From Pascua guehoae (taxonomy: Eukaryota; Basidiomycota; Tremellomycetes; Trichosporonales; Trichosporonaceae), in contig BCJX01000007.1 in assembly GCA_001600415.1 (NCBI GenBank), positions 242,543 through 306,542 on the forward strand: a DNA stretch of 64,000 nt, written 5' to 3'. The translations under genes and the position numbers were made by a program. Under the pieces are notes generated by a model. That model did no database searches and was not told the origin of the DNA. It saw nothing but the letters and a program-made list of their open reading frames with translations. Shown here in pieces: positions 32,278-64,000 of this stretch (the stretch's first letter is position 1; every line of letters begins with the position of its first letter).

Positions 32278-34925
32278 ATGAGTCGACGTCGGCGAGTCTG
32301 GGTCGGGCTAGTGGCAGCAGCCCTCGGCGCCAATGTGGCCATCGCAGGTCTGCCCATCGGCGAGTACGGATCGTGCTTTACAGCGTGCAACGTGCCCCTC
32401 ATGCGGCTGCGCTTCGCGGACCTGGACATGGGGGCGGGTTCGATCTGGGAGGCACGCCTCGCTTCCAACACATGGATGACCTCGCTTGCCATGTGCATGC
32501 ACGAGTACTGCACGCCGCCCAAGATTGACGAGGGCTGGAGGCGCGTCGAGGAATTCTGCGCAGAGGGGGCACCGGGAACGCCTGTCCCTCGGTACCAGGA
32601 CGTGCTTGGGCGCATCGACGACATGCACGCTGTCCCCGTCGTCGATTGTATCGCCGCCGACACCACACCGACAATCTGGAACCACACTGTCATTCCCAAT
32701 CAGAAGAACTTTGACGACGCCGATCGCAGCAACGTAAGTGCCATTCATGTAACGCCTTTGACAAGCGCTTGTTACCGTGTTGGGTTCTGGGGGCGTCTGT
32801 CGTCATGTCGGTCCCGATAACCCGGGCAATCCTCGGAACCCAGTCGTCGTACCATGCTTCATTGAATTGTTGCATTGTATTCTGGTTCTCCTTGGCATCG
32901 CGCCCCATCGGCCGGAGCCGGGTCGCGGACCGACGGCTGCGATGTCTCGGCCATTGGTAGACGGGCGTGGCGACGAGTGTGACACTGTTCCAAGTTTGAC
33001 GAATCGGAATTACTAATGGCAGATGGCATTCGCGCACCAGTTTGAGCTGCACAACGCCTTTGGGGCGTGCATGTTCCTTCTGCTGGCAATCATGCTGCTC
33101 GTCGGCGTCGTGAACCGCTTCCTCGTCTTTCTGGGCACGCGGCGGCGCCTCGACATTGAGAGTGGCGAGGGCGGCCACATGGTCATCTCGTCGGGATCCC
33201 TCTGGCCGCGCGCGTATACCTGGTATCGAGGCAATGTTGGCGTCCCCGCTGCGTTTGGGTACCGGCACGTCCAGCCGTGGGGGTTCCTCTCAATCCCCAC
33301 GCGCGTACAGACCATCCTGATCGGAGCCTACATTGCCCTCAACGTCGTCTTCTCCGTCATTGGCTACGAGCTGTTTGACGAGAACATGTACTGGTGGCAC
33401 CGCAAAGACATGCAGCTCGTCCGCTACGTCAGCGACCGGACAGGTGTCATGTCCTTTTGGAACCTGGTCCTCATCTGGTTGCTGGCCGGGCGCAACGATG
33501 TCGTCATGTGGATCACCGGCTGGTCTTTCCGTGAGTAGAAGGTTGGGCCGTCAGGCCCGACTCCCAAAGTGCATGCTTGCAGCAGAACACTCACACGCAG
33601 AGGCAATGAACATGTTCCATCGCTGGGTTGCCGTCGTCGCCACCCTGCAGGCGATTGCGCACTCGATGTGAGTGTTGCAGCCTCTATCACGACCCCACTG
33701 ACACCGCAGTGGCTACACCGTCCTAAAGTGGGGCTACTTTTGGGAGCAGATGAACGAGAAGTTCTGGGCGTGGGGTGTATACGCAACGCTCACAATGACC
33801 ATGCTCATCCCGCTGTCCATCCGTCCCGTTCGCGTTCGGTGCTACGAGACATTTCTCAACCTCCACATTGTGCTGTCGGTCGGTGTTCTCGTGCTGCTAT
33901 ACGTGCACGTAGAGCGCTTTGGATACCTCCCCTGGGTGTGGATTTGCGTGGGGCTCTGGGTATGTGGCTTACCGGCTGGTCTGATCCCCAATTGACGGCA
34001 GGTATTTGATCGCGTCCTGCGTCTGGTGCGTATGGCGTTCCTCACCTTCCGGACAGTCCTCGCACCCAACTCGATGGCGGTCATTACCGCCTCGGATCCT
34101 GGTCTCCTGCGCCTCAGCGTCAACACGTCGTCGACAGTGCGGCCCAAGCCTGGCGACTACTTCTTCCTCTACTCGGCCGGCTCGTTGTGGGAGAACCACC
34201 CCTTTACGCTGGCGTCATGGGAGCGCAACCCCGGGGGCGGCACGACACTGCACTTTCTCATTGCCCCGCTTGCCGGCTGGACACACCGCCTCAAGAGCCG
34301 CATTGAGCGTGTCCAGCCTGGCCGTGCCGACATGCGCATCCTCCTCGAGGGCCCCTATGGCCACGAACAGCCGTTGGAGGCGTTCGAGAACATTCTTCTC
34401 GTCGCGGGTGGCTCGGGCATTGCGTGCATCTTGCCATATGTCAATGCCCTCTCACACTCGTCACGCAAACACCGGATCACCGTGGTCTGGACTGTCCGGA
34501 ACGCCGAGTACGCCGCCGATGTCCTCCACCACGAGCTCGCAGAAGACAGGATAGACCACGTCGAGCTTGACATTTTCCTCACCAAGCAGGACCCCGAAGA
34601 AGCACGCCGCGAGCTGCAGACCCTCGGCAAGCGCACACCGCCAGGCCACGACCGAGACGAGACCTCGCCCCTCCTCCTGGGCCAGGAAGACTCGGACTCG
34701 GAGCGCCGCGACCTACGCCTCAAGGCCGGCAGGCCAGATATGCAGTCCCTCCTCGCCGAGCACATTGACGAGCTCGTGGGGCATTCCAGGCTCGCAGTGC
34801 TCGCGTGCGGGCCTGCGGCAATGATGGACGACTTGCGCGCCACGGTGGCCGCAGCGTATGGCAGTGGCGAGGGCCAGGTCGAGGGCTGGCAGCTCGAGTA
34901 TTTTGAAGAGTCGTTCCTTTGGTAA
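32278..34925 (+). CDS. ferric reductase (FRE family)
   Basis: ATG 32278 begins a signal peptide-like stretch (VGLVAAALGANVAIAG). Exon 1 ends near 32732; the next coding block starts near 33023, then three short introns. About 735 residues. Lumenal Cys-rich N-domain (CFTACNVPL, CMHEYC); membrane helices from LLLAIMLLVGVVN onward; the paired haem-binding histidines lie in NMFHRWVAVV/QAIAHSI and FLNLHIVL/LLYVHVERF; FAD site WENHPFTLAS; NAD(P)H site LLVAGGSGIACILPY; and CGPAAMMDDL near the end. All parts of a flavocytochrome metalloreductase are present. It moves electrons from NADPH across the plasma membrane to ferric or cupric ions. Control by iron is likely given the GATA site 232 bp upstream. 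Confidence 0.88.
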
Positions 34926-35543
34926 ATCCGAGAAGCTCTTTTTACGAATGGAAACGACAGTCATGTAACGTTTTTGAATCTTGCTATTGTACCGGGCTTG
35001 TACCGGGCTTGTTTCTAGACGAGGAGCATGAGAACAGATGGGCCGAGGGATTTTCCTCGCGATGAGATGGCCCAGACGCATGGACACGCGCCGATCCTGA
35101 GACGGGAGCAATGGTGACGTCATTAGGGTGTGGATGAAACGTGACAACAAAAGGTACAACAGAGCACTGCAACTGCACTGCACAGTTGCACTGCACAGTG
35201 CACTGCCATGGCACCGCTATAGCGACCATGACAATACATCCGCTAGCATCTACACGCTACACGTTTTTGAACAGTCTGCCTGCCTCTCACCCTCTTGCAT
35301 CCTCTCTTCTTTCCATCCAGGCAGCCCACCACCACACCCCTGTACACGGTCACTCAAGGGTAAGTCTGACCCTCCGTCCTCTTCCCCACCGGCTACCTGT
35401 CCGCATTCCAAAGGACCCTCCGTCCATGGTGCATGTCGTGAGGACGGCACCGAACAAGACGCCGTGCAAGGGAGCCATGGATTGCTCAGACAAACCACTG
35501 TCAAGCGCAGGCTGACACTTGAAGCGCACTCAGGTCATCCACA
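34926..35543. other. intergenic with short repeats
   Basis: A tandem TGTACCGGGCT duplication (34988-35010) and a TGCACTGCACAG microsatellite-like stretch (35160-35205). Promoter of the next gene; no other feature. Confidence 0.45.
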
Positions 35544-36941
35544 ATGCCGAGCAAGAACACCCCCACGGCCGCCGAACGGGCGAGCGTCAGCGACATCCAG
35601 CACGGCGTTGATGTCCTCGTATCTGGAGTCAAGGCTACTAGTCTGGAGGACGCCAAGGCCAGCAGCAAGACTTCCAATCCCAAGGCAGCGTCATCCACCA
35701 AGACCAAGACCAGTGCGCCCGAACCGCTGTCGGAGAAGACCAAGCTGGATTTCGCCAAGCTGGCCAACAAGATCACATACGCGACGCACCCGCACATTAT
35801 CGAGCGGGTGATGCAGTACGCGTGTGTGCCTGCGCTCCTTGCGATCCGGGCGTGCTCCAAGGCGCTGTGTGACCGTGCGGACCGTATCTTTGGCTCGCAC
35901 CTCGAGGTGCACATGGCGGGTGCGCAGCTGGTATTCGAGACGCCTGGGGAGCGCGTGATCAAGGGCCAGCGCATCCCTGCATTCAAGGACCGGGGGCCGA
36001 TCGAGATTGGCGTGGACATGGCCCCGTTCATGGCCGCCGCGCACGCCGCGGACAATGGGGGCAATGTCGAGCCGCAGGACGTGTGGTTCAAGGTGCCGCG
36101 CGGCGACGAGGCGTGGTTCAAGACGTTTCTCGGGCGCATCCACCTGGTCGACTTTCACGGGTCGACCATGACGACGATTCTACCTGGACTCGAGCGCGAC
36201 ACGTTTGCGCAGCGCGACCCGTATGGCCGCGTGGCCGTGGCAGCGGCAAAGGTGCCGACGGTGCGCATGTTTCCGTCGCACAGCGCCGACGGGCTGACGT
36301 ACGCGACCATGTGTCCGTTCTACGCCGACAATACCGTCCAGTTTGCGGCCATGACGCAGGCCAACCTGGACCCACAGAAGGCGTGGCTCTACACGGCCCC
36401 CAGCGTCCCCGGATCCGCCAAGGAGCTCACCCTCAACGTCCACCTCAACGCCGAGCAAAACTGGACGGGCCAGTCGCGCATCCCTCCGCCCCTGCGCTAC
36501 CCCGAGGGCCTCAAAGAGGTCAGCATCCTCTTTGGCATCACGGCTGCGCGCCCCTCGCCACACCCGTCGTTTGGACACATTACCACCCCCGACGCGCCCG
36601 GATGCCTGCAAATGTCCACGCTCCAGCCCATTATCACCAAAATCTTCCTCGGCTACCGCCCCGATATCCGCTGGACCCTCGTCGGCGTCGACAGCATGCA
36701 GCTAGAGTACCCGGGCATGGGCGTCATTGACGGCCACCGCCTCAACCTCATTCTCCTCTGCATGATTGGCCTCATTACCGTCATGCCCACCACCCCCGAA
36801 GAGGCCGCGCGCACACGGCCGCCCGCCGACCCCCAGGCGCTCATTGCAAAGGTTGCGCCGCATGTCGGATTCGCCACGTATGACGAGTTTTTCGCCGGCC
36901 AGCGCATGCTGCTCTCTGACCCGGAGCATGCGCTGGGTTAG
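35544..36941 (+). CDS. F-box-like orphan protein (intronless)
   Basis: 465 codons in one exon, ATG 35544. A Lys/Ser-rich N-terminal ~70 residues is followed by HPHIIERVMQYACVPALLAI and RACSKALCDRADRIFGSHL, which fits the degenerate F-box helix pattern (P-x-L/I-I-x-x-V...LRxxSKxxxxxAxxxL). The remainder has no recognisable repeats (no LRR or WD40) but contains blocks such as RIHLVDFHGS, EVSILFGI and QPIITKIFLGYRPDIRWTLVGVD, which recall the leucine-patterned tails of lineage-specific F-box-like proteins. If the F-box is real it would bind Skp1 in an SCF ubiquitin ligase; this is inference. It resembles in plan the gene at 58279-59462. Confidence 0.55.
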   Translation: MPSKNTPTAAERASVSDIQHGVDVLVSGVKATSLEDAKASSKTSNPKAASSTKTKTSAPEPLSEKTKLDFAKLANKITYATHPHIIERVMQYACVPALLAIRACSKALCDRADRIFGSHLEVHMAGAQLVFETPGERVIKGQRIPAFKDRGPIEIGVDMAPFMAAAHAADNGGNVEPQDVWFKVPRGDEAWFKTFLGRIHLVDFHGSTMTTILPGLERDTFAQRDPYGRVAVAAAKVPTVRMFPSHSADGLTYATMCPFYADNTVQFAAMTQANLDPQKAWLYTAPSVPGSAKELTLNVHLNAEQNWTGQSRIPPPLRYPEGLKEVSILFGITAARPSPHPSFGHITTPDAPGCLQMSTLQPIITKIFLGYRPDIRWTLVGVDSMQLEYPGMGVIDGHRLNLILLCMIGLITVMPTTPEEAARTRPPADPQALIAKVAPHVGFATYDEFFAGQRMLLSDPEHALG

Positions 36942-37072
36942 CGCGTGCGTGCGTGAGCGCGTGCGTTAGCACGTGCGTTAGCGCGTTGTACCAAACCCAA
37001 AGAGGAGGAGGGCAGGCAAGCCCCCTGGGGTTGTACCGTGTTGGTTACTGTGTGGCGAACTGTAGCAAACCT

Positions 37073-37165
37073 GTGTCTGTTGATGCAAGATACCATGGCG
37101 AACCAGTGTCTGTTGATGCAAGATACCATGGCGAGCCTGTGTCTGTTGGTGCAAGAGATACCGCA
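37073..37165. repeat. 33-bp tandem repeat, about 3 copies
   Basis: Unit GTGTCTGTTGATGCAAGATA followed by CCATGGCGARCC(A/T). The first two copies are nearly identical, the third is diverged and shortened. Confidence 0.85.
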
Positions 37166-37610
37166 CCAGGGCGATGGTAGTACCGCGGCTGCCCCGTGAG
37201 CCGCACTGGTCCGAGGGTAGTATCGTGCACGGCCTGGTGTGGCCTGACGCTCAAAATGTCATGTCTGCATGTTGCACGAGCCACGATGGAATGCATGAAA
37301 CCCATGGACGCGTCAAATGGCACGCTGGCGCGCTGGCACTGGCGGGCGGGGACTCGATACGAGACGGGCGAGTGCAGCGGCGAATTTCGGCTATCAGCCA
37401 CGGCCAATGCCGCCTCGGAGATGGAGGCAACCAAGGGCAACCCAGCCCTGCCGGCCCTGCCAGTTGCACCGATGACACCATCAGTGGGCTGACCAACTTG
37501 CAACCTGACAACGACCGAGTCGACGTCCGATGCGCGTCGGAATTTCTGCTCCTCATTAACGTGCGCTGCGACTCATTCTCCGTTACTATCACTTACTCTT
37601 CCCGACTCAT

Positions 37611-37611
<1 letters not shown>

Positions 37612-37651
<40 letters not shown>
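37612..37651. repeat. poly-C tract (40 C) just before a start codon
   Basis: The run ends 8 bases before the ATG at 37660 of the PLP enzyme gene, on its sense strand. Confidence 0.9.
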
Positions 37652-37659
37652 ACCCCCCA

Positions 37660-38898
37660 ATGGCACCTCCCAACAAGAACGACGCAGCGACGGTGGGCGC
37701 CGACACATGGGCCGTCCACGGCGGCAACCATGTGGACGTCGGCACGCGCGCGATCCGTACGCCCATTGTCATGGCCAACTCGTACCTGCTCCCCGAGGAC
37801 CCGTCCCAGATGAGCTGGAGCGGGACCGACCAGATGCTGTACACGCGCAACGGGGGCGCCAACCAGCAGGGCCTCGAGCGCAAGCTGGCGGCCATGGAGG
37901 GCACCGAGGCGGCCGTGACGTTTGCGACGGGCGTGGCTGCGCTGCACGGTGTGTTTTTCACGCTGCTCAAGACGGGCGACCATGTGGTGGTGTCGAATGT
38001 GACGTACGAGGCGGTATGGCGGTTGTTCACCGAGCTCCTCCCGCACAAGTACGGGATTGAGGCCACGTTTGTGGATGTTTCCGACTTGGATGCTGTGCGC
38101 GCCGCAGTGAGGCCGAACACGAAACTCGTGCACGCCGAGACGATCGGGAACCCAACCACCAAAGTCGCCGACATCCGCGCGCTCGCCGACATTGCCCACG
38201 CCGCGGGTGCCCTCCTCGTCGTCGACGCGACATTTACGCCGCCCCCCTTCTACCGCGCCGCGGGGGACGGGGCCGACCTGGTCGTCCACTCGCTCACAAA
38301 GTACATCAACGGGCACGGGGACGCCATGGGCGGGTCCGTCGCGGGCGCCCTCGACCTCGTCTCCAAGATCCGGCGCGACGCCGTCGTCGACGTCGGCGGC
38401 GTCATTTCGCCCTTCAACGCATGGATGATTATGCGCGGGAGCGTCACTCTCCCCCTCCGCCTCCGCCAGCACTATGCCAGCGCCGCCAGAGTCGCCGCCT
38501 TCCTCGCGTCCGACCCGCGCATCGCGTACGTCGCCTACCCGGGCCTCGAGTCGCACGCGCAGCACGCCCTCGCCAAGCGTCAATTCGGGGACGACAAGGA
38601 TCAGTATGGCGGCGGCATCGGGGCCATGCTCGCGTTTGCCCTCGATGGCGACTCGGATACCCAGAACCGCTTTGTCGCCAACCTCGCCGTCATCACGTCG
38701 GCCGTCAGCCTCGGGCACGACGAGACGCTCATTGTCCACGTCGGGCCCGACGCGCGCGGCGGGTCCGAGACGTACCCCAAAGAGTTTACAACGTATGGGC
38801 ACCTCCGCCTCTCGGTGGGGCTCGAGGATGCGGACGATCTGGTGGCGGATATCAAGGCCGCGTTGGACAGGACGCAGATTACAAAGATCAAGGCGTGA
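37660..38898 (+). CDS. Cys/Met-metabolism PLP-dependent enzyme (gamma-lyase/synthase type)
   Basis: 412 codons, no intron. The fold-type I trans-sulfuration family is clear: YTRNGGANQQGLERKLA near residue 60 (Tyr and Arg that contact PLP phosphate), the FATGVAALHGVFFTLLKTGD helix, LVHAETIGNPTTKVADI, LLVVDATFTPPPFYR (Asp that holds the pyridine nitrogen), and the Schiff-base lysine in VVHSLTKYINGHGDAMGG. LRLSVGLEDADDLVADI closes the C-terminal domain. Members include cystathionine gamma-lyase, methionine gamma-lyase and cystathionine gamma-synthase; I cannot tell which, though the length is typical of lyases. ATG at 37660 is chosen over the longer frame because the sequence upstream is poly-C leader. 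The lack of introns and very high GC at third positions stand out. Confidence 0.85.
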   Translation: MAPPNKNDAATVGADTWAVHGGNHVDVGTRAIRTPIVMANSYLLPEDPSQMSWSGTDQMLYTRNGGANQQGLERKLAAMEGTEAAVTFATGVAALHGVFFTLLKTGDHVVVSNVTYEAVWRLFTELLPHKYGIEATFVDVSDLDAVRAAVRPNTKLVHAETIGNPTTKVADIRALADIAHAAGALLVVDATFTPPPFYRAAGDGADLVVHSLTKYINGHGDAMGGSVAGALDLVSKIRRDAVVDVGGVISPFNAWMIMRGSVTLPLRLRQHYASAARVAAFLASDPRIAYVAYPGLESHAQHALAKRQFGDDKDQYGGGIGAMLAFALDGDSDTQNRFVANLAVITSAVSLGHDETLIVHVGPDARGGSETYPKEFTTYGHLRLSVGLEDADDLVADIKAALDRTQITKIKA

Positions 38899-40182
38899 GC
38901 GAGTCGGGCGAGGGGCGCTGGGCGGGGCACTTGGGGGTAGTAGCTGGTGTGGGGTAGAAACAACATGCATGGGTACAGTTCGTCAGAGCACAGGCGCACG
39001 CATCCGCTGCTTCGACCCACAGGTGGCAGCACCTCCCAGTCGCCGTTCCGACAGGGCACAGTCGCAGGCATCGGGCGTTGCCTCGCGCACTCATGTGCCA
39101 GCCACCTCCAGCCATGTTCGCCACAGCACAGTCACAGGCAGTCGCGCACTCACTCAGGCAGCATCCCCGTCGCCTCGATAGGTGTCCGCAGTCGTCAGAC
39201 GGCCGCAGTGACGCTCAGCGTGTAGCGCTCTCACGACTTGGCGGACAGTGCCTGCACATGCTTCAAGAATGAGATACGCCTACGCCTCGACGCCGTGCCA
39301 TTTGCCCGACAGCCATGTCAATGGACCGCGATCAGGCATGCCGTGGCGTGCTGCTGAGAGTTGGGCTCACAAATCTCACGGCCCACAGATATCACCCTAC
39401 ACTCACGCTTTTGAGCACTGCATTCGTCAACAGGTGCCGGCCGTGGTCTTGTATCGTGCCGCGTGTGTATGACGTCGACCTGACTCGACAGTGCTGGTGC
39501 TATTCCCTCCTCGTGCTATTCCCTTGACTCCTCTTGCTATTCCCTTCACTTGCAACTACTCCATCAGGAGATCAGGAGGCGTAGGCTCGCTGAGGGCATC
39601 GACAACTAGGTGTAGCTTGTACACCTTTGGATATACCGCCAATCTCTGGGCACGGTGCTGCTTCAGTCTCCGTGGTGACTACCCACACTGCTGCCATTGG
39701 ACATCGGGCGGCGTGTTGAGCACCGGTGGAACGGTGATCATCACAGCGGGATCTGTGGGAGGGGGAGGGCGCTGCCAGTGCGTCAGTGCGTCAGTGCGTC
39801 AGTGTTGATCGAGGTGAGTTGGAGGTGAGTTGGAGGGGAGAGGACACTGGGGCTACACTGGCATGATTAATTGCGCGCGGCTGCGATCACCGAGGAGTCA
39901 CAGCGAGCGCCATGCCTGGACTACTGGACAGACATGATTCAGACATCATTCCGTGACCAACAGCTAACCACCCTCAGGCCAACAAGTTTAGAGACAAGAC
40001 GGTTCTTTCAGGCATAGGAGAGCCTAGTTTACAGATGAGACGGCTCATTCAGACATGGGAGAGCCTGGCGTGGGAGAGGCCAATGTCCCCCTTCAGGCCT
40101 GACCCACATCCACCACGCCGAGACAAGAGATCTATGCATGCATGCACTGTAGCTGAGCACGGCACTATGCCCATGTAATTCT
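38899..40182. other. 1.28-kb intergenic, convergent
   Basis: Contains CAGTGCGT microsatellite (39776-39805), a short GGTGAGTTGGA duplication and an imperfect ~33-bp direct repeat (GAGAC-AAGACGG... versus GATGAGACGG..., 39989-40065). No gene is supportable. Confidence 0.45.
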
Positions 40183-42762
40183 CTACTCGTTCCAAGCAAT
40201 GACTGCCTGACGACGTCAGCGCCTGCCCAACGGCCGCAGACCAACGGGCCACGGGCGACTCACCATGCAGAAGACACCAAACGCCATGGCGGCATACTCC
40301 TTGAGGGCCTGCTTTGCGCTGCGCGACTCTTCGAGGAGCTCGGGGATGACGCTGACGGACGCAATGTAGAGGAAGCCTGGGTGGGGTTAGGAAAAGCAAG
40401 CCTGCAGACATCCCTCCACTCGTCCACTCGTAAACAAGCCTGCAGCCACCCCTCCGCTCATAAACAAGCCTGCAGACATCCCCCTGCTCATAAACAAGCC
40501 TGCAGCCACCCCTCCGCTCATAAACAAGCCTGCAGCCACCCCTCCACTCGCACTCACCACCTGCAGTCATAGGAATGACGAGCTCGCCGCCACCGACGCT
40601 CGTGCCAAAGATACCCTGGCCCTCGGGGACGACGCCGCCCTCGGTGCCCGAGCCAGTCGTCTCGGCAATCCAGATACCGATAAACGTGCCGACAAAGGCG
40701 CCGACGGCGGTGAAAAACTGGCTCCCCATGGCCTGGTACTTTGTAAAGCCAGACTTGATGAGAATCGAGTAGTCTGCGACCTCGTGGGGGATTTCGTGGC
40801 AGAAGGTCGCAATCGTCGTCACGGCGCCGAGCTGGGGCGAGCTGTAAAAGCTCGCCGCCATCGCGAGGCCGTCGGTAATGTTGTGCGTAAAGTCGCCAAA
40901 GAGGTTGAGGTAGGCCGACAGGCGCAGCGACGGGTTGTCCGACTTGCCCTTTTGCTCGGGCGCCGCCGACGCAGTGCTGTCCTTGCTGCCGTCCGTCTTG
41001 CGCTTGCGCAGCTCACCCTCCGACTTGGCGATGGCCGACGACTCGCCAGTGGATTCTCCGTGGTTGTGGCTGTGACCGTGACCGTGACCGTGGTTGTGGC
41101 TATGTCCGCCCTCATTCCCTGCCGACGCGTTGAGGACGCGCATCGACTTGTCGAGGACAAAGAATGCCGCGAAACCGAGGAAGATGGCGCCGCTGTGGTG
41201 TTAGCTCAACGGCTTGGCTAAAGTCTGCGGCGGTGCGAAATGATCATCTCTAGTCCTTCAACTTGGTCTCGACGTTTCCCCCACTTTCCAGACCCGCTTC
41301 CCCTACGTCGCTTCTGGCATATCTCCGTTCAAAGTGGCTGTCGCCCACGCTACTGTCTCAATCCGTCCGTCTCCCAAACCACCTCTCCTCCAAGCCATTG
41401 TCCCAGACATCGTCTCTCTAGCCTCTTCTCAATATGCTCCCTCAACTCCTCAAGCAAGCACTATAGGCCATGCTACGACCGCCGCGCCTCCCAACCCCAA
41501 CCCACCAAACCAACACTCCCCCACCAACCCAATACCATCCCCAGCCCCTCAATACCGCCCCCAGCTTCTCAATTCCTCCCCCAACCCCCAGTACCTCCCC
41601 CTCACTACCCCCGCAGCGTCGCGCACACCCAAACTCACCCAATAACGATATTCCTCTGCTCGTCAACCACAATCCTCCGCACGCTCTCATGGTCGCCCTC
41701 GCCAAAGAACGCGTGGGGCACGAGGTGCAGGAAGACGTCGCCCAGCAGGCCGCCGGTCGCAAACGCAATCATCGTGTTGAGCGACGACGGCTCGAGCGTC
41801 GCGGGGACGGCGAGGAGGATAAAGTTGGGAATCGACGAGATGTAGAATGTGCCGAGGACTGCGGGTTAGTAAGCCGGGGTGGGGGTGGGGGAGGGGGGGN
41901 GGAGGGAGGGAGGGATACAGGACGGAAGAGCGGGGGTTCAATGGAGCAGCCGCGCGGGGTAGGAGGTGGGGACGCGAGTTCGCAGATGATCGGCTTGAGC
42001 AGCCGCAGCGGGGCAGCAGATGGGGGTTGGGTTGACAGATGGATACGCCTGAGCCGCAGCAACGCAGGTGGGGGGACGTTGGGTTGGCAGATGGATAGAG
42101 CAGCCAACGGCGGCCTAACACCCACTTCCACCGCAGCCACGACCAGGAACACCATCGCCGTCGTGCCCACCATGTCCGCCTGGAATCCACGCCTACTCGG
42201 CATCAACAGCACACTCACTCGAATTGTACGCCGGGCTCTGGAAGGGAAAGAGGAACGCAAACACCTTCTTCATCGTCGTCGAGTGCGTGTCGCCCGTGAC
42301 ATAGTGGTCCGAGAGCTGGCGTCAGTGGGGACTTGGCATTCACAGTTCGAGGCTCAGGACGGTGTGTGGATGGTAGATGGCAGATTGAGCGGAGACCGAG
42401 TGAGGCTGAGTGAGGTCGAGGCAGAAGCAGAGGCAGAGCCCGAGGCAGGGCTGAGGTTGGGCTGAGGCGCCAGTCCAGATCGGCCGCATCAGGAAGTGTC
42501 GACACGATCAGACGCCGAGTAACGTCGGCGCAGACCACCCCGCCGCAGGCCGCACACCGAGGCGAGCACGACACAGCCAAACATAGTCGTCACACACCAC
42601 GGCGGATAACGATACGCCCGCGCCCAATCATACACGCGTGCCCGAGCACGCACACGACCCTCCCATCCGCACAAACACCAGCCGAGTACTCACCTTTGTA
42701 TCGCTCGCAGCGACGACAGCGGCGCCCGCGACGAGCGCGAGTAGGAGGAGCGCGCGGGACAT
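40183..42762 (-). CDS. ZIP zinc transporter, LIV-1/KE4-like
   Basis: ATG 42762 starts a signal peptide ([20 protein letters not shown]). Later exons encode [56 protein letters not shown], a His-rich loop ([18 protein letters not shown]), [18 protein letters not shown] and [19 protein letters not shown], ending VFCM-AVIAWNE after a last intron (GTGAGT...GTCAG) with stop at 40183-40185. The HNITDG and HEIPHE motifs are the metal-binding helices 4 and 5 of the LIV-1 subfamily; yeast YKE4 and SLC39A7 move zinc between ER/Golgi and cytosol. Signal peptide and His-rich loop support the endomembrane type. Introns are long and repeat-filled. A TATATA box at 42846-42853 lies about 85 bp upstream. Confidence 0.82.
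40398..40553. repeat. 30-bp minisatellite in ZIP intron
   Basis: About 4.5 copies of AAACAAGCCTGCAGCCACCC plus CTCCGCTCAT inside an intron near the 3' end of the ZIP gene. Copies differ by CC/CA changes. Confidence 0.9.
41877..42120. repeat. poly-G/N and diverged repeats in ZIP intron
   Basis: A G-rich run with an ambiguous base at 41900, followed by diverged GGCTTGAGCAGCCGCAGC and TTGGCAGATGGATA units. The intron assembly is probably imperfect. Confidence 0.6.
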
Positions 42763-49297: not shown

Positions 49298-51526
49298 ATG
49301 CCCGTGAACGCTGCTGTCGTGAGGCACGTCCTCGCGCTCACGATCAGGCGCGAGGGACTGGCCCTCGCGCCACAGTGTCCTTCATGGTACGCGACACGCG
49401 CACCATATTCGACCGCTGCAGCGCTCGCTAGCCCCGATGTCGGGCAGAGCGTCCCGCCGGACGTGGCCTGGGCTCCACGTCCAGGCCAGCTGCCAAATGC
49501 GCGTGTGAGGGGTCCGGATCTAGTCTTGGATCAGAAGAGGGATGGAGGAGCCGAAAAGGGTCATAGGCCCGGGACACAGGTGAGTATGGGGACCGCGTGA
49601 AGAGTATATCCTCGCAGGGGCTGACATCAGCCTTCGTCGTCGAGGGTGAAGTGGGGCTTGCGTCGAGAAATGCCAGCGACGCAGTGGACGCAATCGACGC
49701 AGTCGACATCCAAGGTGTCAAAGGAGCCTTTGCCTTTGGCCCCTTCGCCCCGTTTACCAGTACCCGGCACTGCAAAACGTGTCCGGCTACCTTCAAGGAC
49801 GACGGCGGACCCTCATTATGGCGCCCTGCAGCTTGAACGGTACAAGGCCGCCGCATTGCTGTCCCCGCAGGAGCTAGTTGGACAGGTCAAGGGCCTGCTC
49901 GAGCTTGGCCGCCCCCGCACCGTGGCTGGACTGTGGGCGCACCTCGCGGCTGTGCGCATGGTGGTTGACCGCCTGACGCCACGGCAGTGGCCGAGAGCCG
50001 ACTCGCTTCTGAGCAAGCTCATGGCACGGCACCTCCGAAGCCTCGTCCACATGTGGAACGAGTGGCTTGCGACTGTTGAGACGCTGTACGAGCTCGGCGC
50101 ATTTCCGCGTCCCAACGGCACGGAGGCACGAGATCTCCACCCACGCAAGTTTGACTCCCTGTTCCTCGCCATCCTCAAACGGCCGCTCGACAGGGCGATG
50201 GCACGCGCGCACAGGGCGAATCGGCTCGCTCGCGCCGAGGCCAAAAATCAAATGGAATCGGCGTCAGGCCACAGCGTTGGACATGGCGATGGCTCCGACC
50301 ACGCCATTTTCCCCCTTCGGCGACAGTACCTCACAGTCCCCAGGGTGCTCCATGTGATGGAAAAGATCGGGCTCCACCCCACCGAGCAACAGATCAAGTT
50401 TCTGCTGCAGCACGTGTCCATCAACGTGCTGCTCAAATGTGCACACGCCGAAAAGGACAATGCCATGAACCGCGCCGCGCGCCGTGCCATCGACCGACTC
50501 GTACGTGACGCTGCCATCACCTCGTATCGTCCAATCGACACCCGGCCCGCCGCGTACGCCGTCGACGACAAGCACGCCGCCGCGTACTCGTCCGAGCTGG
50601 GGCTCGCTGCGGCTCAAGTGGTGGTGGACCATCTCGAAAAGGCGAAATACTACAACAAGCCCGCGGCAGCTTCGTGGTCGGCCGAGCTCGTACGGTTCCG
50701 ACCCCTCATCCTGAACACGGCGCGACCCCACGTCCTTCGCGCAAGTACGAAGCGCGGATCAACACCGTCCAAGCGCGAGTCGCTGGCCATCTGGCTCATC
50801 CTCCGCGACGTCCTCCTCTCTGCACCCGGGGGGAGGGAGCTGCGGGCCGCCTGGAACCCGGTCGGGGCGTTTGATCTGGGAAACCCGCTTGACCTCATCC
50901 ACCTCCTGATGGGCTCGGACCCAGACACTCCGCTGACACACGTTACAGGCAAGCGCCTTCACTCGGGGATCATGCGTGTAGCGCGCGAGGCTGGGCATCG
51001 GGGACAAATCGGGCCAGTCGTCGAGCTGTGCGACCTCTTGGCCGTGTCTGCAGACTCGAAGCACGCGTCGGAGCCTTCCACCGTCCTCTCTACCTCTGGC
51101 GTCGTTGTCGACGCAAATCATGACAGTGCCTCGAGTAGTACCGTGGACGCAAGGACCCTCACCCCCGTGTCTCCCGACGCTCAAACGCCCACACGCACCA
51201 ATCCATCCCTCCATGACATGTGGGACCCGCCGGCACACCCCAACCCCCCACCGCCCCTCGCCCTCTTTTGCGCCGCCTACCTCGCAGACGCGGCGCGTGT
51301 CCCAGAAGATCTAATGACCCTCCTTCCCCGCCTCTTGCGCCTCGTCGTCGAGCCGGGCGTGCCGCCCGACGCAATGATGGCTGTCGTGCGGCCCATTACA
51401 AACCACGTGCTGGCCGTTGCGCACCAGGCCGATGTGCAGCGTGTCGGCGGCGCGAATGTGGAGCGCGACGTGCACGACATGTTTGTGAGGTGGGGTGCGA
51501 TTGAGACGGAGGCCGGTGTAGTGTAG
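49298..51526 (+). CDS. mitochondrial alpha-helical protein, hypothetical
   Basis: ATG 49298; exon 1 codes an N-terminus rich in Arg, Ala and Ser without acid residues (AVVRHVLALTIRREGLAL, WYATRAPYSTAAAL), a good mitochondrial presequence. An intron of ~52 nt (GTGAGT...CTGACATCAG, 49579-49630) joins to a 630-codon exon. The body is helical: LLSPQELVGQVKGLLELGR, LWAHLAAVRMVVDRLT, VLHVMEKIGLHPTEQQIKFL and SINVLLKCAHAEKDNAMNRA. The helix-pair spacing and KIGLHPTEQQ turn recall pentatricopeptide repeats, but I cannot define repeats confidently. It may act in organelle RNA metabolism (inference). An acidic, Ser/Thr/Pro-rich insert lies near 51060-51250. Stop TAG 51524-51526. Confidence 0.6.
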
Positions 51527-56878: not shown

Positions 56879-56969
56879 GCCCGTTTATATCAGTCGGTAG
56901 ATAGTTTGACTCTTACTACCATGCGTGTAAGCAATCAAAATGTCATGGGTTCGAGCCCCATAATGGGCT
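56879..56969 (+). tRNA. tRNA-Lys (CTT) with intron
   Basis: Acceptor GCCCGTT pairs with AATGGGC; D-arm TATC/GATA; anticodon stem TTTGA/TCAAA with CTT at 56912-56914; an 18-nt intron after position 37; T-arm ATGGGTTCGAGCCCCAT. A TTTT run follows for pol III termination. The D-stem is unusually A/T rich. Confidence 0.8.
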
Positions 56970-57334
56970 TCTCTTTTGCTTACCACTCGCACGAAAGGAG
57001 TTGTATGTTGGAGAGGAAGACTGCGCGCGTTCCGAGTCTTGACAGCATGCTGGCGAGACTAAGGGCTCCAGGGACGCGAGCAGACTGTCCAAAACGCTGC
57101 TCCATGGGCATCTCAGCCGCTGGGGAACAGTCGCATCCCATCTTCCACCAGATCGGAGCAATCACCGTAAACTAGCTGCCTAACGACTGTGACACCGGCT
57201 CGAAAAGGCGGCGGCGGGACACGAGGGCAAGACTTGGTCACATCCCCCAGACGAGGTCATGACGGCCATGCCACCCCACCTCCTCGACCTCGCAGCAGAT
57301 GACACCCCCTTCCTGCCGCCCCCGGCAAAAGGAA
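56970..57334. other. spacer between tRNA genes
   Basis: 365 bp between two convergent tRNA-Lys genes. No gene or repeat visible. Confidence 0.4.
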
Positions 57335-57426
57335 AGCCTAGTATGGGGCTCGAACCCATGACATTTTGATCTGCTACTGCTGTGGGTAGTAAGAGTCAAA
57401 CTATCTACCGACTGATATAACCAGGC
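57335..57426 (-). tRNA. tRNA-Lys (CTT) with intron, minus strand
   Basis: Acceptor GCCTGGT pairs with ACTAGGC; the changes from the other copies are compensated in both strands of the stem. The D, anticodon and T arms match copy 56879. Intron about 19 nt. CTTTCCTTTTG follows as terminator. Confidence 0.75.
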
Positions 57427-57795
57427 CAAAACCCTTGGAAGACAAGGGATGCGTAGCTTGTTCTCTGGCTGGTTTAAGAGCCTGAACGGCAGCATTCCCC
57501 AATCAGCCGACCCTTCTCGAGAGGGTAGTGAGAGAGGGAGACGCACGAGTGTCGTCACGAGCTCCAGGGTGCCATCTCCTCCTCGTCGAGCGACTCGGTC
57601 ATTACAAGCAATATGGGTTGGCGTACCCCCCAGTGTGAGCGAGGGCGTTCACAGGCACCTGTTTACGTCCACGGTCTTTGCGGGAGGCACCTCCTTCTTT
57701 CTGGCACTTGACGGGGAGCAGCTCCCATTCGCAGATGGCGAGCAGTGACCCCTCAACATGGGCAACATACAAGCCGCTGAGCACTTGGGAGCGAC
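57427..57795. other. spacer before small secreted gene
   Basis: No gene or repeat is visible here; it is the likely promoter of the short gene to the right. Confidence 0.35.
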
Positions 57796-57963
57796 ATGGC
57801 TTTTCAGCAAACCGTATTCCTCCTAACTCTACTCATCCTTACAGCCCTCGCGGCCACCGTCCGCGCAGACGACCTCGTCAAGGCCAAGCGCCACACCTGT
57901 CCCAACCCCAACACCCGTCTCGGATTGGGAGATGAGACATATATCAAGGACATTGTGCTCTGA
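57796..57963 (+). CDS. short secreted peptide precursor, hypothetical
   Basis: ATG 57796 to TGA 57961-57963, 55 residues. The first ~24 form a strong signal peptide (MAFQQTVFLLTLLILTALAA, TVRA cleavage site). The mature part starts DDLVKAKR; the KR pair is a possible Kex2 site that would release HTCPNPNTRLGLGDETYIKD plus three residues. A single cysteine is present. An alternative model splices from GTGCTC at about 57954 to a downstream frame ending WITHDCEGPTDAEPEILPQQ near 58120, adding a second cysteine. I recognise no family. It sits among tRNA-Lys genes. Confidence 0.4.
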   Translation: MAFQQTVFLLTLLILTALAATVRADDLVKAKRHTCPNPNTRLGLGDETYIKDIVL

Positions 57964-58278
57964 GCCATCGTCCACGGACTGGATGCTCCGCTCTGACCTC
58001 TGGCGTCCATGCCTGCCCTGCACGCCTGCACGCACGGGGAGCATCGTGTGGATCACCCACGACTGCGAGGGCCCCACTGATGCTGAACCGGAAATACTGC
58101 CTCAACAGCAGCTGCAGTGAACGTCTCGCAGGTCTCCATGACTCCTAACGCATGAATACCGCAAACGGCAATGGGGTGTATCTGCTGTACTGCCAAAACA
58201 AGGCGGGCAGGATTTGGAGGTGAACCAGTCCAGGCAACCCCCTTCCCCCCAGGGGGTTGATTCCCTTACGGCCCCATC
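57964..58278. other. intergenic or 3' part of the small secreted gene
   Basis: Contains the alternative downstream frame (SIVWITHDCEGPTD, ending about 58120) and otherwise nothing. The next gene ends at 58279. Confidence 0.3.
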
Positions 58279-59462
58279 TCAGCGCCACACCAACTTGTAC
58301 TGGTCCACAGGGCCACCCTGCTCGGTCTCGAGCGCGAGGTCGTTGGGGGACAGCGTGGCCCCATACTCGTCGAGGGTGCAAACTGTGATTGCTTGACCGA
58401 CGACATGGGTAATGCGTTCGCGCTCGCTTTTGGACATGGGCGGCCGGACTGAGCTTTGGCCCGTGCCCTCCGAACCCAGGTCCCAACCCCGGTTTGTGCC
58501 CATCTTGAGTTGTACAATCTCCGAGACTATCATGCCCTTGAGATGAGGGTCGGATGTGGGCCGCGGCTGGTGAAGATTGAACAGGAAGGGGGTGACGGTG
58601 CGCATGTCGACAAACGTGTACTGGGCGTTAGACCAAGTTGATACGTAACAGTGGTGCTCACCTTGATGTCGGGAATGGTGACTGCAATGTACGGAAGGAG
58701 CTGTGTCAAAATGCCCATCCGCTGGGTGGGCAAACAATTCCGCCTCCGCCTGGTTCCGCCCAGGTTCGCAAAGATGAAGACGACGTGGCGGAGCGTAGTG
58801 GGCCAGTTGGGACACCCCAGATCGTGATACTGTTCGCCTCGATGCCCAGCTCCATAATCTGTTATGTGGATGACAAGCTTTTCCACACCGTGCGCGACGG
58901 GGTCGACGGGGAGGAAACCCAAGTCCAGACTCGTGACTAGGCCGATGTGTATGAATATAACGACGCGTTTGGAAGAAACGGCAGCGGCCCACAGCATCTG
59001 GTCGTTGGGTCGCCTGAGCTCTGTGTGTCGCAGTGTGTGAACTCGGTTCAGGGAGCGGAGCATCACCCTCGAGGGATACGGGATGTGCGAGGCAGAAATT
59101 CTCGACGCTTGTTCGATCATGGCGGCGTCGAGAACGCGCACATGGCTCAAAATGTCGCGGTAACGAGCGTTGTCGGCGTCGCCCACATGCCACCGAGGCG
59201 GACCGTCTACTCTGCGCCCTCTATCCCAGGGGAGGCCAGGCAAGTAAGAACCGTCGACTGTTGTGACGGAGATGCCGTAGTGAGAGAGTGGCATTCTGAT
59301 ATGGTACGCCATGATCGCCTCGACGCGCGCCTTGAACGAACGCGATGCACCACGAAGTGCCATCAGTGTCTCCTTGTCTGTGTACGCAAAGACGGCATCC
59401 ACGAGATGTGGGTAAAACAACGCATCGAGATAGGGCGGGCCGGTTTGGTTGAGTGGTGCCAT
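58279..59462 (-). CDS. F-box-like orphan protein
   Basis: ATG 59462 and stop TGA 58279-58281; one intron (GTGAGC...ACGCCCAG, about 58625-58667) joins IPDIK to YTFVDMRTVTPFLFNL. About 380 residues. The start DALFYPHLVDAVFAYTDKET and LMALRGASRSFKARVEAIM matches an F-box-like two-helix pattern. The body has alternating basic and hydrophobic segments (VEKLVIHITDYGAG, TLRHVVFIFANLGG) like the leucine-patterned C-terminal halves of lineage-specific F-box-like proteins; GMIVSEIVQLKMGTN follows. It ends QGGPVDQYKLVWR. A role as substrate adaptor of a ubiquitin ligase is only inferred. It is similar in plan to the gene at 35544. Confidence 0.6.
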
Positions 59463-59967
59463 GGTGATATGTGCGACGCACAAGTTGACGAGCACAGTCA
59501 TCTTTGCATGGCACCTCGCAACCATCGCAAGCGTAGCAGGTGGCCAAGGCACACCCTGTGCGATGACCGAAGCCTCTCCTACCGTGCAGCACTTCCACTC
59601 CGCAAATGAATTCGTATTGTGCTAATGGCACGCCTCACAGACTGTTATGGCCTTCTCGTTTAGCTATGGACTCGTTGGGGGTAGGTTGGGGATCGCACGG
59701 GGCCATCAAGGCGGTGCCACATGTTGCAATATGTCGACCCGAAGACCGACACTCAGCCGATGCTCGGACTGACCTAGCATGGCACCATGGGTCAACGGTT
59801 GGACCGCTCGTACGACAGTGCTCGGACTACAGACATGCAAGGGTTGGCGATGCACACGCCGACAATAACGTTCGGGTCGCCGGTCAGAGGAAGCCATCTG
59901 CCCAACAAGTAAGTAACCTTGGCCCATCCATAATCATCTCTGACATCTCACCAACCAGCGTTGGCTT
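59463..59967. other. intergenic
   Basis: Between the F-box-like gene and the third tRNA-Lys. No supportable feature. Confidence 0.35.
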
Positions 59968-60058
59968 GCCCGTTTATATCAGTCGGTAGATAGTTTGACT
60001 CTTACTACCATCCGTGTAAGCAATCAAAATGTCATGGGTTCGAGCCCCATAATGGGCT
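59968..60058 (+). tRNA. tRNA-Lys (CTT) with intron
   Basis: Nearly identical to the copy at 56879; the intron differs by one base (ATGCG to ATCCG). Anticodon CTT at 60001-60003. The 3' flank CATTTTTGTTTTT gives a pol III terminator. Confidence 0.8.
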
Positions 60059-60309
60059 TTCATTTTTGTTTTTCACTACTGGTCCACCCATGACTTCGAC
60101 GGTCTGGAGCACGTTGAGTGGGAGGGGGTTGCGGCATGTACTTCACAGCTTGACGCGCAGAGGGCAGTCGACGCGCCGATCGTCCTTGGGCATCTCCCCC
60201 TGTCGTTTCACTTTGCACCATGCCAGCAGAGTACCATCGTGGCGGCCAGTGGATCCGAGTCGTTCTTGGTGGGAAGCCAAGCCTACCTGCCACCAATTCA
60301 GGTTGGCTG
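60059..60309. other. spacer
   Basis: 251 bp between two tandem tRNA-Lys genes; no other feature. Confidence 0.35.
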
Positions 60310-60400
60310 GCCCGTTTATATCAGTTGGAAGATAGTTTGACTTTTACTGCCATTCCAGCAGCAAATCAAAATGCCATGGGTTCGAGCCCCATAACGGGCT
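60310..60400 (+). tRNA. tRNA-Lys (TTT) with intron
   Basis: Acceptor GCCCGTT/AACGGGC; D-arm TATC..GATA; anticodon TTT at 60343-60345; intron of 18 nt; T-arm ATGGGTTCGAGCCCCAT. A TTTTT run follows. It reads the other Lys codon set and lies about 190 bp from the recombinase 3' end. Confidence 0.8.
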
Positions 60401-60585
60401 CTCATTTTTCTTTTGCACGGGTCCACGTCCTCGACGAAGCACGAACATCACACATCAAGGAACATGTCAAGGGAAAAGAACACCTTCTCAAGACGAGGAG
60501 CACGATCGAAAACATCATGTCCAGCCCAGATGCCACCGGGTTTAAAGATTGACCGTAACGAATCACATGCATGAACATGAGTAGC

Positions 60586-63500
60586 TCACAGAGCGCGGCC
60601 CACAAGACTGTCTAGAATACCCGCGGGGATGGCGTGCGTCTCCCCGGCCGCGCCAGGGCCGTCCCCGAAAACGACGTCAAGCAACCACTCGTCGTCGTCC
60701 TCGCCCTCATCCTCTCCTTCATCCCCATCGCCTCCCATCCCAGAAAGGCTCTCCTTGGGTGTGTTTCGCATAGCTCGGACAGCCTCCTGGTGTTCCGCCT
60801 TGACCTCGTCGCATGTGGCCGGGTCAAGCGCACGCCGGTAGTGCTGGGGAAGCTCGCTAAGCTCATGCTCTTCGGTCAAATGTTCGGTCACGCGCTTGCG
60901 CTTTTCGTGCCACTTGGTACCACCCCGAAATGACCAGTCGCAATTGTTCAGGGGGCAGGCCCAGACGGCTATCATGTGTCAGCGGTGAAAAGCCTGTTGG
61001 GTAAATAAAACACTCACATTCGTGAACAAATAGCTTCAGCCACTTTTGCAGCTCGGCCCATTCGGAGTGGCGTTGGCATAGGTGCCGCTTGTACTTCCAA
61101 GATTGGACTTTGTCCCACCTGCGCTCCTTCTCGGCCTTGTCCGAATTGTCGCTGTTTACACAGAATTCGCAAAGATCGCCACGGCGCGCATGTATCTTGA
61201 TCTCGTGCTCGGACAACAGCCTAATGTCAGTCGGCCCAGGTTGAAACGGCCAAGCCGATCCAGAACTCACCGAAGGAAGTTGGCGAATGGGCTTGGAGCT
61301 TGAGCCGCGTCGACCGAACGAGGGCTTGGGTCGTCGGGGCCGACGCCCGGACTCTTGGACCGCTGCCATGCTGCCTGTTGTCCGCCTACAGCTGTGACTG
61401 TCAGCTTTCAATCCTATCATACGCTAACAACAACTCACTCATTTCGGGCCCCTCTTCTGCCCCTTCAACGGCAACGGCGCTGGCTGCACTGAGATTGGCA
61501 CGAGTCGGATCAATGCCATCATTGTCCGCACCAGTGTCACCCGTGTCCTCTCCCTCTTGCTCCACTTCATCTTCATCAAGCTCACTGAGCCGGTCATCTG
61601 CGTCCTCGCGCTCGTCGTCGTGATTGGCAACGTCCTCAGGGTCGAAAACCTGGTCAATGTCGACGCCACTGACCTCGATCTCGGAGCAGCCGACCTGATC
61701 GCGATTGAGAGTCTGGAGAAACTCTTCATCTAGACGAGACAATGTATCGTCAATCTTCTGGACGAGGTGGGCGGTGTCGAGGGCGGACGCTCGCCGTTCT
61801 TCAAGATCCCTCCATGTCATAGCGAGTCGGTCAGTTGCCTGCCTCTCAAACTCGGAAGCAGTTGCTTCACCCTGCGCCATCTTGACCACTTTCTTCAAGT
61901 AGCTTTTGAGATTGGCGATGATGACGGGGAGGTCGTTTGAGCTGAGACGACCTTTGCTCCACTGTCAGGTCAGCTACTGTACAAGGATGGGGGGAATTGC
62001 GACTTACTGGTTCTTTTCGCAGCCATTCCGTCGATCCAAAGCGCAGACACTCTTTGAGGTAGCGCAACTGGTCAGCTTTTTTCCCAAAAGCTGGGTTCCG
62101 CTTGAGTGCTTCCTCGAGCGTGACTTTGCCTGTTTGGGCATCGGTAGCCCGGAAGAATGAGGGAGAAATGTCAACGAGCTGTTTAGACTGGCCCTCCTCA
62201 ATGAGGCCCTCTGTGAGGTTGGCCCATTGGCTCGCCTTGTCGTAGTGCTTCTCTAGGGCCATCGAGTTTGGTTGGTGTCCCATGAAAAAGCGGGCGACAC
62301 TCTTGTCGTACGCAGCCGACATCTTTGTTGCAAAACCGCGGCGGAGGGCGTATAGAGTGTTGCAATTGGAGATGCCGGTGTCGATGCCGTATGCCCCGAG
62401 TAGGCTGTGAAAGATCCTGTTGGCCGAGTTCAGCGACAATGGGTTGTCGGCGAGGTTACTGCGTGACTTGCGTGACAGAAAGACTGGCTTATCGTCAAAC
62501 TCTGGAATGCACCTGAGTTCGACAAGGTCGTTATCGAGGATGTCCTCAATCGTCATGTCGCCGAAGACGCCTCGGCTGACTCCCATCAGGAGCAGTGGGA
62601 TCGCAAGGTCCAGTGAAATATTCTCCTCCAGAGAAGGAGGCTGAATCACATACGAGATCCTGAGACTTGTCAGCGTTTTCATTTTTGTTGTCCATCCTAC
62701 TCACCGAAGCTGCGCGCCGTTATGGTATCCCTTAAACGAGGTGAGCGTCACCTTGACTCGATAGTTCCGGATTTTGCCTGTGCTATCGCGCAAAGGGATG
62801 AACCGGTAGAGCTGAACGTCAGGAAAGCTCTAAACAACGATAGCTTTACGTACCCTCCACGTGGAGAATTCATCGGGATAGTGGCTGGTGGCAAGGATGC
62901 CCCCTCCCCGGGCGCCAGTATCAAAAAAGTCCAAGACCATCCCGTGGGTCTGCACCGCCTGCTTGTCAGCCCGATAGCTCTGCATGTTCATTTCATTTTT
63001 TACACTCACGACGTCAAAGGCCTGAGGAGGGAACACCTCGTAGATAGTGGCCACCAGCCCGCGCACATCGACTGCGGTCAGAACGAGTCGGTCTTTGGCA
63101 AGGTTATGGATGTTGAAGGCTACTTGAAGAGCGGATTCGTGCTAATGTCAGCTTCCATGTTGCAGGAATAGTCTCACCGCCCTCAGTTCTGCGCATGCAC
63201 TGAGCCTCTCGTCCTTTGTGAAGGCGGGGTACGGAAGGTGAGGTAGCTGGCAGTCAGGTCAATCTCGTTGTGTCGACATACAAGGTTGGTACACAACATC
63301 GTGAGGCTGTGCAGCCCATGCAAGCTCATGTACACGTGTCTCCCTTCGGCGTCATACTTGTATTGACCGGTACGGTCCATTTTGGCAGACCATACCACCC
63401 GAATGGTCATGTAGCGCTGCAAACGGGCTGGTATCGTGGAGTCAGTAGCTGAAGACTCGGTCTACTGCAGGCACTCACCGACAATCGTGTGCTTGTTTGA

Positions 63501-63797
63501 TTCTCCGTGAGACAATCCAAAGTCATTGAACAGGTCGGTATGGCGGTGCAAGGCGACAAACTCCTCACCGGTACGCAAGATGCGGCGTTGGTAAATGCGA
63601 CCCTTGTTGGGGATGGCTTTGGTGATGGCCTCAAGTTCGTCCAGTTGATCAACGGTTATTGCCGCAGCGACCTCGTCTATCGTCCTCCGGGGAGGGCGGA
63701 GAATGGGGGCCTCGCCACCCGCCTCCTCTTCTTCGAGAAAGTCGTCAACAGCCGATCCCGAGATCTCGACCTGGGGCCCTGCAAGGCCGGGATCCAT
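60586..63797 (-). CDS. tyrosine recombinase with C-terminal zinc fingers (DUF3435-like)
   Basis: ATG 63797 (another in-frame ATG at 63812); stop TGA 60586-60588; about ten introns of 35-60 nt, giving ~900 residues. N-terminal DNA-binding-like region (YMTIRVVWSAKMDRTGQY, GGGILATSHYPDEFSTWR). The catalytic domain spans roughly 305-450: box I IPLLLMGVSRGVFGDMT (first Arg), box II NTLYALRRGFATKM (second Arg, with Tyr-Ala in place of the usual His-x-Leu), FFMGHQPNSMALEKHYDKA (His and the nucleophile Tyr). An acidic linker (DDRLSELDEDEVEQEGEDTG) is followed by two zinc-finger-like blocks, CEFC..HLCQRH and CPLNNC..H..H. All four RHRY-type residues seem present, so it may be active. The family includes Starship captains and other fungal DUF3435 proteins; Cryptons are more distant. 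Introns and full length argue against a relic. Confidence 0.72.
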
Positions 63798-63847
63798 CGT
63801 GGACGAGCACAAGGTGGGGCGAGAGTGGTCGAAGTGGTGACGGCGGG

Positions 63848-64000
63848 AGAGTGGGTCGAGGTGTGCAAAGGGAAAGAGGATAGAATGGGTCGAGGTGGCA
63901 AAGGGAAAGAGGATAGAATGGGTCGAGGTGGCAACGGGAAAGAGGATAGAGTGGGTCGAGGTGGCAAAGGGAAAGAGGATAGAGTGGGTCGAGGTGGCAA
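63848..64000. repeat. 33-bp tandem repeat running off the window
   Basis: More than four copies of GGGAAAGAGGATAGAATGGG plus TCGAGGTGGCAAA, just upstream of the recombinase start. 33 bp is a multiple of three, so one minus-strand frame reads an 11-residue PPRPTLSSFPL repeat; I see no join to the recombinase frame. Confidence 0.9.

Follow-up and report, generated by a model that had tools for sequence, protein, structure and literature searches.

The right-hand part of the window (the whole 64,000-nucleotide stretch of DNA analysed here) carries an intact, spliced gene for a DUF3435-type tyrosine recombinase, which was found once in the genome. The gene is read on the minus strand, from a start ATG at 63797 to a stop at 60586, and these coordinates are exact. 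The gene, its parts and the repeat array upstream of it are laid out as follows.

60586..63797, minus strand: tyrosine recombinase gene, 919 amino acids, 11 exons (splicing model and homologue comparison)
63797-63479, 63427-63282, 63246-63178, 63141-63010, 62958-62854, 62811-62705, minus strand: recombinase exons 1-6
62659-62008, 61961-61439, 61391-61271, 61220-61018, 60968-60586, minus strand: recombinase exons 7-11
62008..62659, minus strand: exon 7, the catalytic part, with Y396xxR399, H421 and Y432
60586..61220, minus strand: C-terminal Cys/His zinc-finger-like region, exons 10-11 (Cys/His invariant in 5/5 sequences)
63848..64000, plus strand: tandem array of a 33-bp unit, upstream of the recombinase ATG, cut off by the window end at the first N

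The initial spliced model was a single open frame of 926 amino acids, and it came down to 919 when intron 4, at first 30 nt, was extended to 51 nt to remove 7 residues that the Kwoniella homologue does not have. All 10 introns are of the GT..AG type and 35-51 nt long, with CTGAC near the 3' end of each (10/10, by eye), and this uniformity argues that the reading frame is not a chance one. The description of the gene in the initial annotation as an intact tyrosine recombinase with clean introns is thus borne out. Exon 7 has one match in the 33.6-Mb genome, the DUF3435 family also has one match, below its cut-off, and a 4.2-kb DNA query across the genome detected no second copy of the gene; these copy-number searches score the best candidates only, so that a recombinase of greater divergence might escape them. 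The unit of the 33-bp tandem repeat has three genome matches, all in this array. It was considered as a binding array and set aside, being found nowhere else and having nothing further in its support.

When the protein is aligned with four Kwoniella homologues, R239 (exon 5), K284 (exon 6), Y396, R399, R400 and Y432 are invariant in all five sequences, and H421 is kept in four of them, being replaced by Q in the homologue P0003. The catalytic residues are therefore retained, as had been proposed: R, K, YxxR and Y throughout, and H in 4/5. Starship captains carry R-Y-R-Y. The full zinc-finger C-terminus announced earlier is likewise present as a zinc-finger-like region, in which C742, C745, H771, H776, C797, C802, H822 and H827 are the same in 5/5 sequences and the zinc-finger profiles give echoes below threshold only. 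The Pfam family DUF3435 (PF11917) scores 15.7 bits on the recombinase, below its cut-off of 25.8, while the exon-7 frame alone reaches 18.8 bits against that same cut-off and 18.0 bits against 27.1 for Phage_integrase. Two of the four Kwoniella homologues, P0003 and P0004, do pass the DUF3435 cut-off (37.8 and 27.5 bits), and P0001 and P0002 have no DUF3435 match in Pfam. Full-length identity of the recombinase is 28.2% to P0003 over 876 columns and 30.6% to P0004 over 859 columns. Judged from its sequence, by this full-length homology to proteins that pass the cut-off and by its conserved catalytic residues, the protein can be assigned to the DUF3435 recombinases. Other profiles add faint echoes: two PHROG integrase families (E 0.015 and 0.022, from 1/5 members each) and, in the PDB, the Int of 6emy (E 2.7) and a Helios zinc finger (E 0.28). 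No NCBIfam match was obtained for the recombinase, and a structure prediction from P0003 and three homologues gave a poor model (pLDDT 42.5).

Protein searches returned four relatives, all diverged and all from Kwoniella, which is consistent with the probable basidiomycete host suggested at the outset. P0001, from Kwoniella mangroviensis, is 30% identical over 92% (protein search, 7,999 candidates scored), and P0002-P0004, the proteins of Kwoniella CBS 6097, CBS 9459 and K. heveanensis, were found with P0001 residues 60-540 as query. The four Kwoniella proteins correspond to L486_03677, IAT40_007914, IAU59_006834 and I317_07260. A search with a two-sequence profile returned 0 proteins and missed even P0001, so the list of relatives is not exhaustive. 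These relatives bear on whether the recombinase could have been domesticated, descending vertically and doing a job for its host. Its single occurrence in the genome and a full-length architecture common to the host protein and Kwoniella would agree with such descent, as would a tree test in which the species grouping is not rejected (p-AU 0.084). However, the catalytic residues are kept, and the Kwoniella proteins share only 35-65% mutual identity. Between CBS 6097 and K. heveanensis the identity of these proteins is 65%, while the CBS 9459 protein reaches 35-37% with either of them and 40% with that of K. mangroviensis, which it joins in a small family tree with support 83/86; in the accessible part of PMC11185503, CBS 9459, CBS 6097 and K. 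heveanensis are classed as siblings. Only these four Kwoniella relatives came out of the non-exhaustive searches, and domestication seems to us improbable. The recombinase probably belongs to a mobile element.

The neighbourhood on the 3' side of the recombinase contains a cluster of four tRNA-Lys genes within 56879-60400.

60310..60400, plus strand: intron-containing tRNA-Lys(UUU) gene, the candidate attachment site on the left (anticodon by eye)
59968..60058, plus strand: tRNA-Lys(CUU) gene with intron (Rfam)
57335..57426, minus strand: tRNA-Lys(CUU) gene with intron, of the other acceptor type (Rfam)
56879..56969, plus strand: tRNA-Lys(CUU) gene with intron (outside the stretch scanned by Rfam)

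Within the same stretch, at 59721-59941, lies a dispersed repeat about 220 bp long, which has six further matches (76-86%). At two of the four loci examined it stands 5 and 15 bp from tRNA-Gly and tRNA-Ile genes, and it resembles the solo LTRs of a tRNA-seeking retroelement.

The 5' side of the gene continues beyond the window, and positions there are given on its contig (C7) or as window equivalents. Directly right of the window, 4,456 bases read N (C7:306543-310998), and beyond them, at C7:311809-311848, stands the 40-bp 3' end of a tRNA-Lys gene, an orphan that has no 5' half. The pattern for this 3' end has 67 matches in the genome, against 0 for the reversed control. At 58 of the 59 sites read among these 67, the 5' half lies directly upstream (56 CUU, 2 UUU); the orphan is the one exception, and the only tRNA-Lys 3' fragment among the sites read. 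Over 38 bp that take in the trailer, its sequence is the same as that of the UUU gene on contig C10. The recombinase is thus flanked by a complete tRNA-Lys(UUU) gene on its 3' side and by a tRNA-Lys(UUU) 3' end in the same orientation on its 5' side, with a distance from T-loop to T-loop of 8,894 bp (window 60378 to window-equivalent 69272), an interval whose continuity is unread because of the 4,456 N between the gene and the fragment. The two 3' ends share an identical 13 bp, GGGTTCGAGCCCC.

The UUU gene of the window, one of the 2 of this type among the sites read, is itself composite: its 5' half is like that of the C10 UUU gene and its 3' half is nearer the CUU type. Its last 26 bases have 1 mismatch to the CUU type and 3 to the C10 gene, two of these three differences forming one compensating pair in the T-stem, and its trailer is closest to the CUU trailers. 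Such a CUU-like 3' half is as expected if an integration had brought in a foreign 3' half; local gene conversion could also have produced it. With several tRNA-Lys genes grouped here, a decayed fifth copy together with gene conversion is a further possible origin of the orphan.

Directly left of the orphan 3' end, at C7:311636-311808, lies a repeat of about 170 bp, here called R, of which the genome holds at least five copies. The C25 copy is at 77% and the C1 copy at 71%; those on C6 and C2 match over 50 bp. All five run into tRNA-3'-like sequence in the same register (by eye), and at three of them (C7, C1 and C2) the fragment beside R can be matched with a tRNA gene or with the 5' half of one. 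The split gene on C1 is Glu-like by eye, to judge from its TTC anticodon loop; its two halves stand 419 bp apart, and intact genes on C2 contain the identical sequence for a 39-bp stretch of the 5' half and for 32 bp of the 3' half (the latter by eye). The insert of about 0.42 kb in this gene (C1:1813160-1813760) also carries, besides R, a second, partial R copy in direct orientation. On C2, an intact Phe-type tRNA (by eye) occupies positions 109-193 of the stretch read, and after it, at 404-583, come R and a decayed 3' fragment whose T-loop and acceptor end agree with those of the tRNA; tRNA and fragment have TTCGATCC and TCACTCCA in common. At C6 the 5' half is Ala-like and the fragment is of another type. 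The C25 copy has no assigned tRNA type, and its fragment does not recur in the genome at up to 3 mismatches. No whole tRNA was seen beside R on C1 or C6. At C6, C2 and C1 the tRNA or its 5' half lies 0.26-0.42 kb from the fragment. The fragments and 5' halves were called by eye and BLAST, Rfam flagging none of them and reporting, within the split tRNAs, neither an intron nor any other RNA. Two other identities for R were rejected: a tRNA-derived SINE is disfavoured, as the copies abut different tRNAs, and neither the order nor the sense seems right, by eye, for the primer-binding site of a retroelement. It is likelier than not that R marks mobile DNA that splits tRNA genes.

The C7 copy stands out: over the roughly 0.8 kb that separate R from the N stretch there is no 5' half of a tRNA-Lys gene, which places its partner either farther off or within the N. 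The explanation that we tentatively favour, while granting it somewhat less than an even chance, is that the recombinase integrates DNA into tRNA genes and that the stretch between the two T-loops is its mobile element. Many bacterial integrases use tRNA genes, restoring a whole gene on one side and pushing the old 3' end to the other. In a comparable way, strand exchange by the recombinase would take place within the tRNA T-arm, with the 13 bp given above as its core. The candidate element, from window 60378 to window-equivalent 69272, would supply a substitute tRNA 3' half, leaving the tRNA gene whole on one side, and the old 3' end would be displaced to its far side. The short R copies on C6, C2 and C1 may then be its non-autonomous relatives. 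The intact recombinase gene with its diverged relatives supports integration. A look for terminal inverted repeats at the candidate element, which was unsystematic and in an interval partly N, revealed none.

The same observations could be read with the recombinase as a solo captain-type gene, the ends of a former Starship-like or small element having been lost, and with R and its fragments as an unrelated family of small repeats that land in tRNA genes. This is a substantial possibility, if again one that falls short of even. According to the portion seen of PMC12134995, solo DUF3435 genes are commoner than captains in elements. No recombinase accompanies the short R copies over the sequence read beside them (2 kb to one side at C1 and C25, 0.85 kb at C6 and C2), the recombinase side of the candidate element (60401-64000) has no match in the sequence at those four copies, and neither terminal inverted repeats nor a cargo boundary were seen. 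Several points stand against a solo gene. The R copies on C1, C2 and C6 have their partners within 0.42 kb, whereas the C7 copy lacks a tRNA-Lys 5' half over about twice that distance; the sole recombinase of its type sits inside the very interval that leads to the UUU gene; and the chance that an R copy falls within 9 kb of it is about 0.3% for five copies in 33.6 Mb, a figure whose true value is higher since the count of R is a lower bound.

The initial annotation had looked for cargo to the left of the recombinase, in a large element of the Starship type. That argument fails because the neighbours it cited are all multi-copy in this genome. The orphan frame at 58530-59621, once called F-box-like, has no Pfam match up to E 10 and belongs to a family with 51 genome matches, itself included; the tRNA-Lys 3' end is found 67 times; and the ferric reductase, about 26 kb from the recombinase, has an NAD domain that is one of 13 genome matches. 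Pfam was run on 20 selected open frames, 17 from the window and 3 from its right flank, and matched three of them: the ferric reductase domain, a Cys/Met-metabolism PLP enzyme and a ZIP zinc transporter, which are clustered at window 33996-41200. At 49625-51523 there is a 633-aa open frame without a Pfam match, whose sole other genome match spans 51 residues.

A large Starship could still be imagined, with its 5' boundary at R and the tRNA fragment and its cargo to the left, beyond the tRNA cluster. The 5' end of the recombinase does face the R boundary, a candidate Starship-like 5' boundary 5.5 kb from the ATG across the 4,456 N. 5S rDNA, like tRNA, is a pol III gene, and Tremella and Kwoniella are both Tremellomycetes. 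As far as the text seen of PMC12153272 goes, captains stand at the 5' end of Starships, and Starship direct repeats longer than 6 bp are associated with 5S rDNA. Starships in a basidiomycete have already been published: eight of them, of 41,942-605,797 bp, are described in Tremella fuciformis in the part consulted of PMC13066641, so that the initial description of captains as known from filamentous ascomycetes is outdated. Against a large Starship, no left boundary was seen and the left neighbours are multi-copy families; a DUF3723 search gave 0 matches, as did its controls. We give this reading little probability. Of the proposal that an intact relative drives a large element here, the DUF3435-type recombinase and its probable mobility stand; the best boundary evidence, which lies right of the gene and outside the window, suggests instead that the element is small, about 8.9 kb long.

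The recombinase shares with Starship captains a DUF3435-type catalytic region with R/K/YxxR/H/Y, its single-gene state and a 5' end turned toward the candidate boundary. It differs in scoring below threshold for PF11917, in being without demonstrated cargo and in having a tRNA gene as candidate target. In size, too, the candidate element falls below the 15-kb floor of one survey (PMC12153272, as excerpted), and, by description, it is set apart from the Starships of T. fuciformis, likewise in a basidiomycete host, at about 8.9 kb versus 42-606 kb (PMC13066641, in the part consulted). From its sequence and its comparison with the Kwoniella homologues, the recombinase can be called captain-type and its link to Starships a candidate one.

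A fungal tyrosine recombinase in a small candidate element with short direct repeats also recalls CryptonF, and it was in Cryptococcus neoformans and other fungi that Cryptons were discovered (PMC3212892, in the text seen). However, the GCR1_C domain that follows the recombinase in CryptonF is not among the Pfam matches here up to E 10. As printed in the same partial text, the Crypton tetrad is R-H-R-Y and the repeats are of 4 or 6 bp, whereas here Y takes the place of H in YxxR and the candidate core has 13 bp. That the recombinase is a Crypton is very improbable.

The closest likeness in layout is to bacterial tRNA-integrating elements: a whole tRNA gene, a displaced 3' end in direct orientation and a recombinase between them, all of which are seen here, in an interval partly N. 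The differences are a eukaryotic host, a spliced recombinase, a single such pair with a recombinase and the N within it. Bacterial tRNA-using integrases have their sites in the T-loop or the anticodon loop. By analogy, the recombinase element would work like one that uses such an integrase. The wider proposal is of a eukaryotic tyrosine-recombinase element that integrates into the T-arm of tRNA genes, brings its own substitute 3' half and has short non-autonomous relatives that split or tag Glu-like, Phe-type and other tRNAs, a bacterial strategy carried out by a captain-type enzyme. Taken as a whole, this proposal is possible and rather unlikely; no fungal recombinase element that splits tRNA genes appeared among the best matches of a literature search. 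If it is true, some fungal captain-type recombinases would use tRNA genes as attachment sites, and would therefore have a fixed and predictable target. A simple two-site assay would become possible for a captain-type recombinase, and the broken tRNA genes of this genome would be explained. Finally, the record of Starship-type recombinases in basidiomycetes would be widened.
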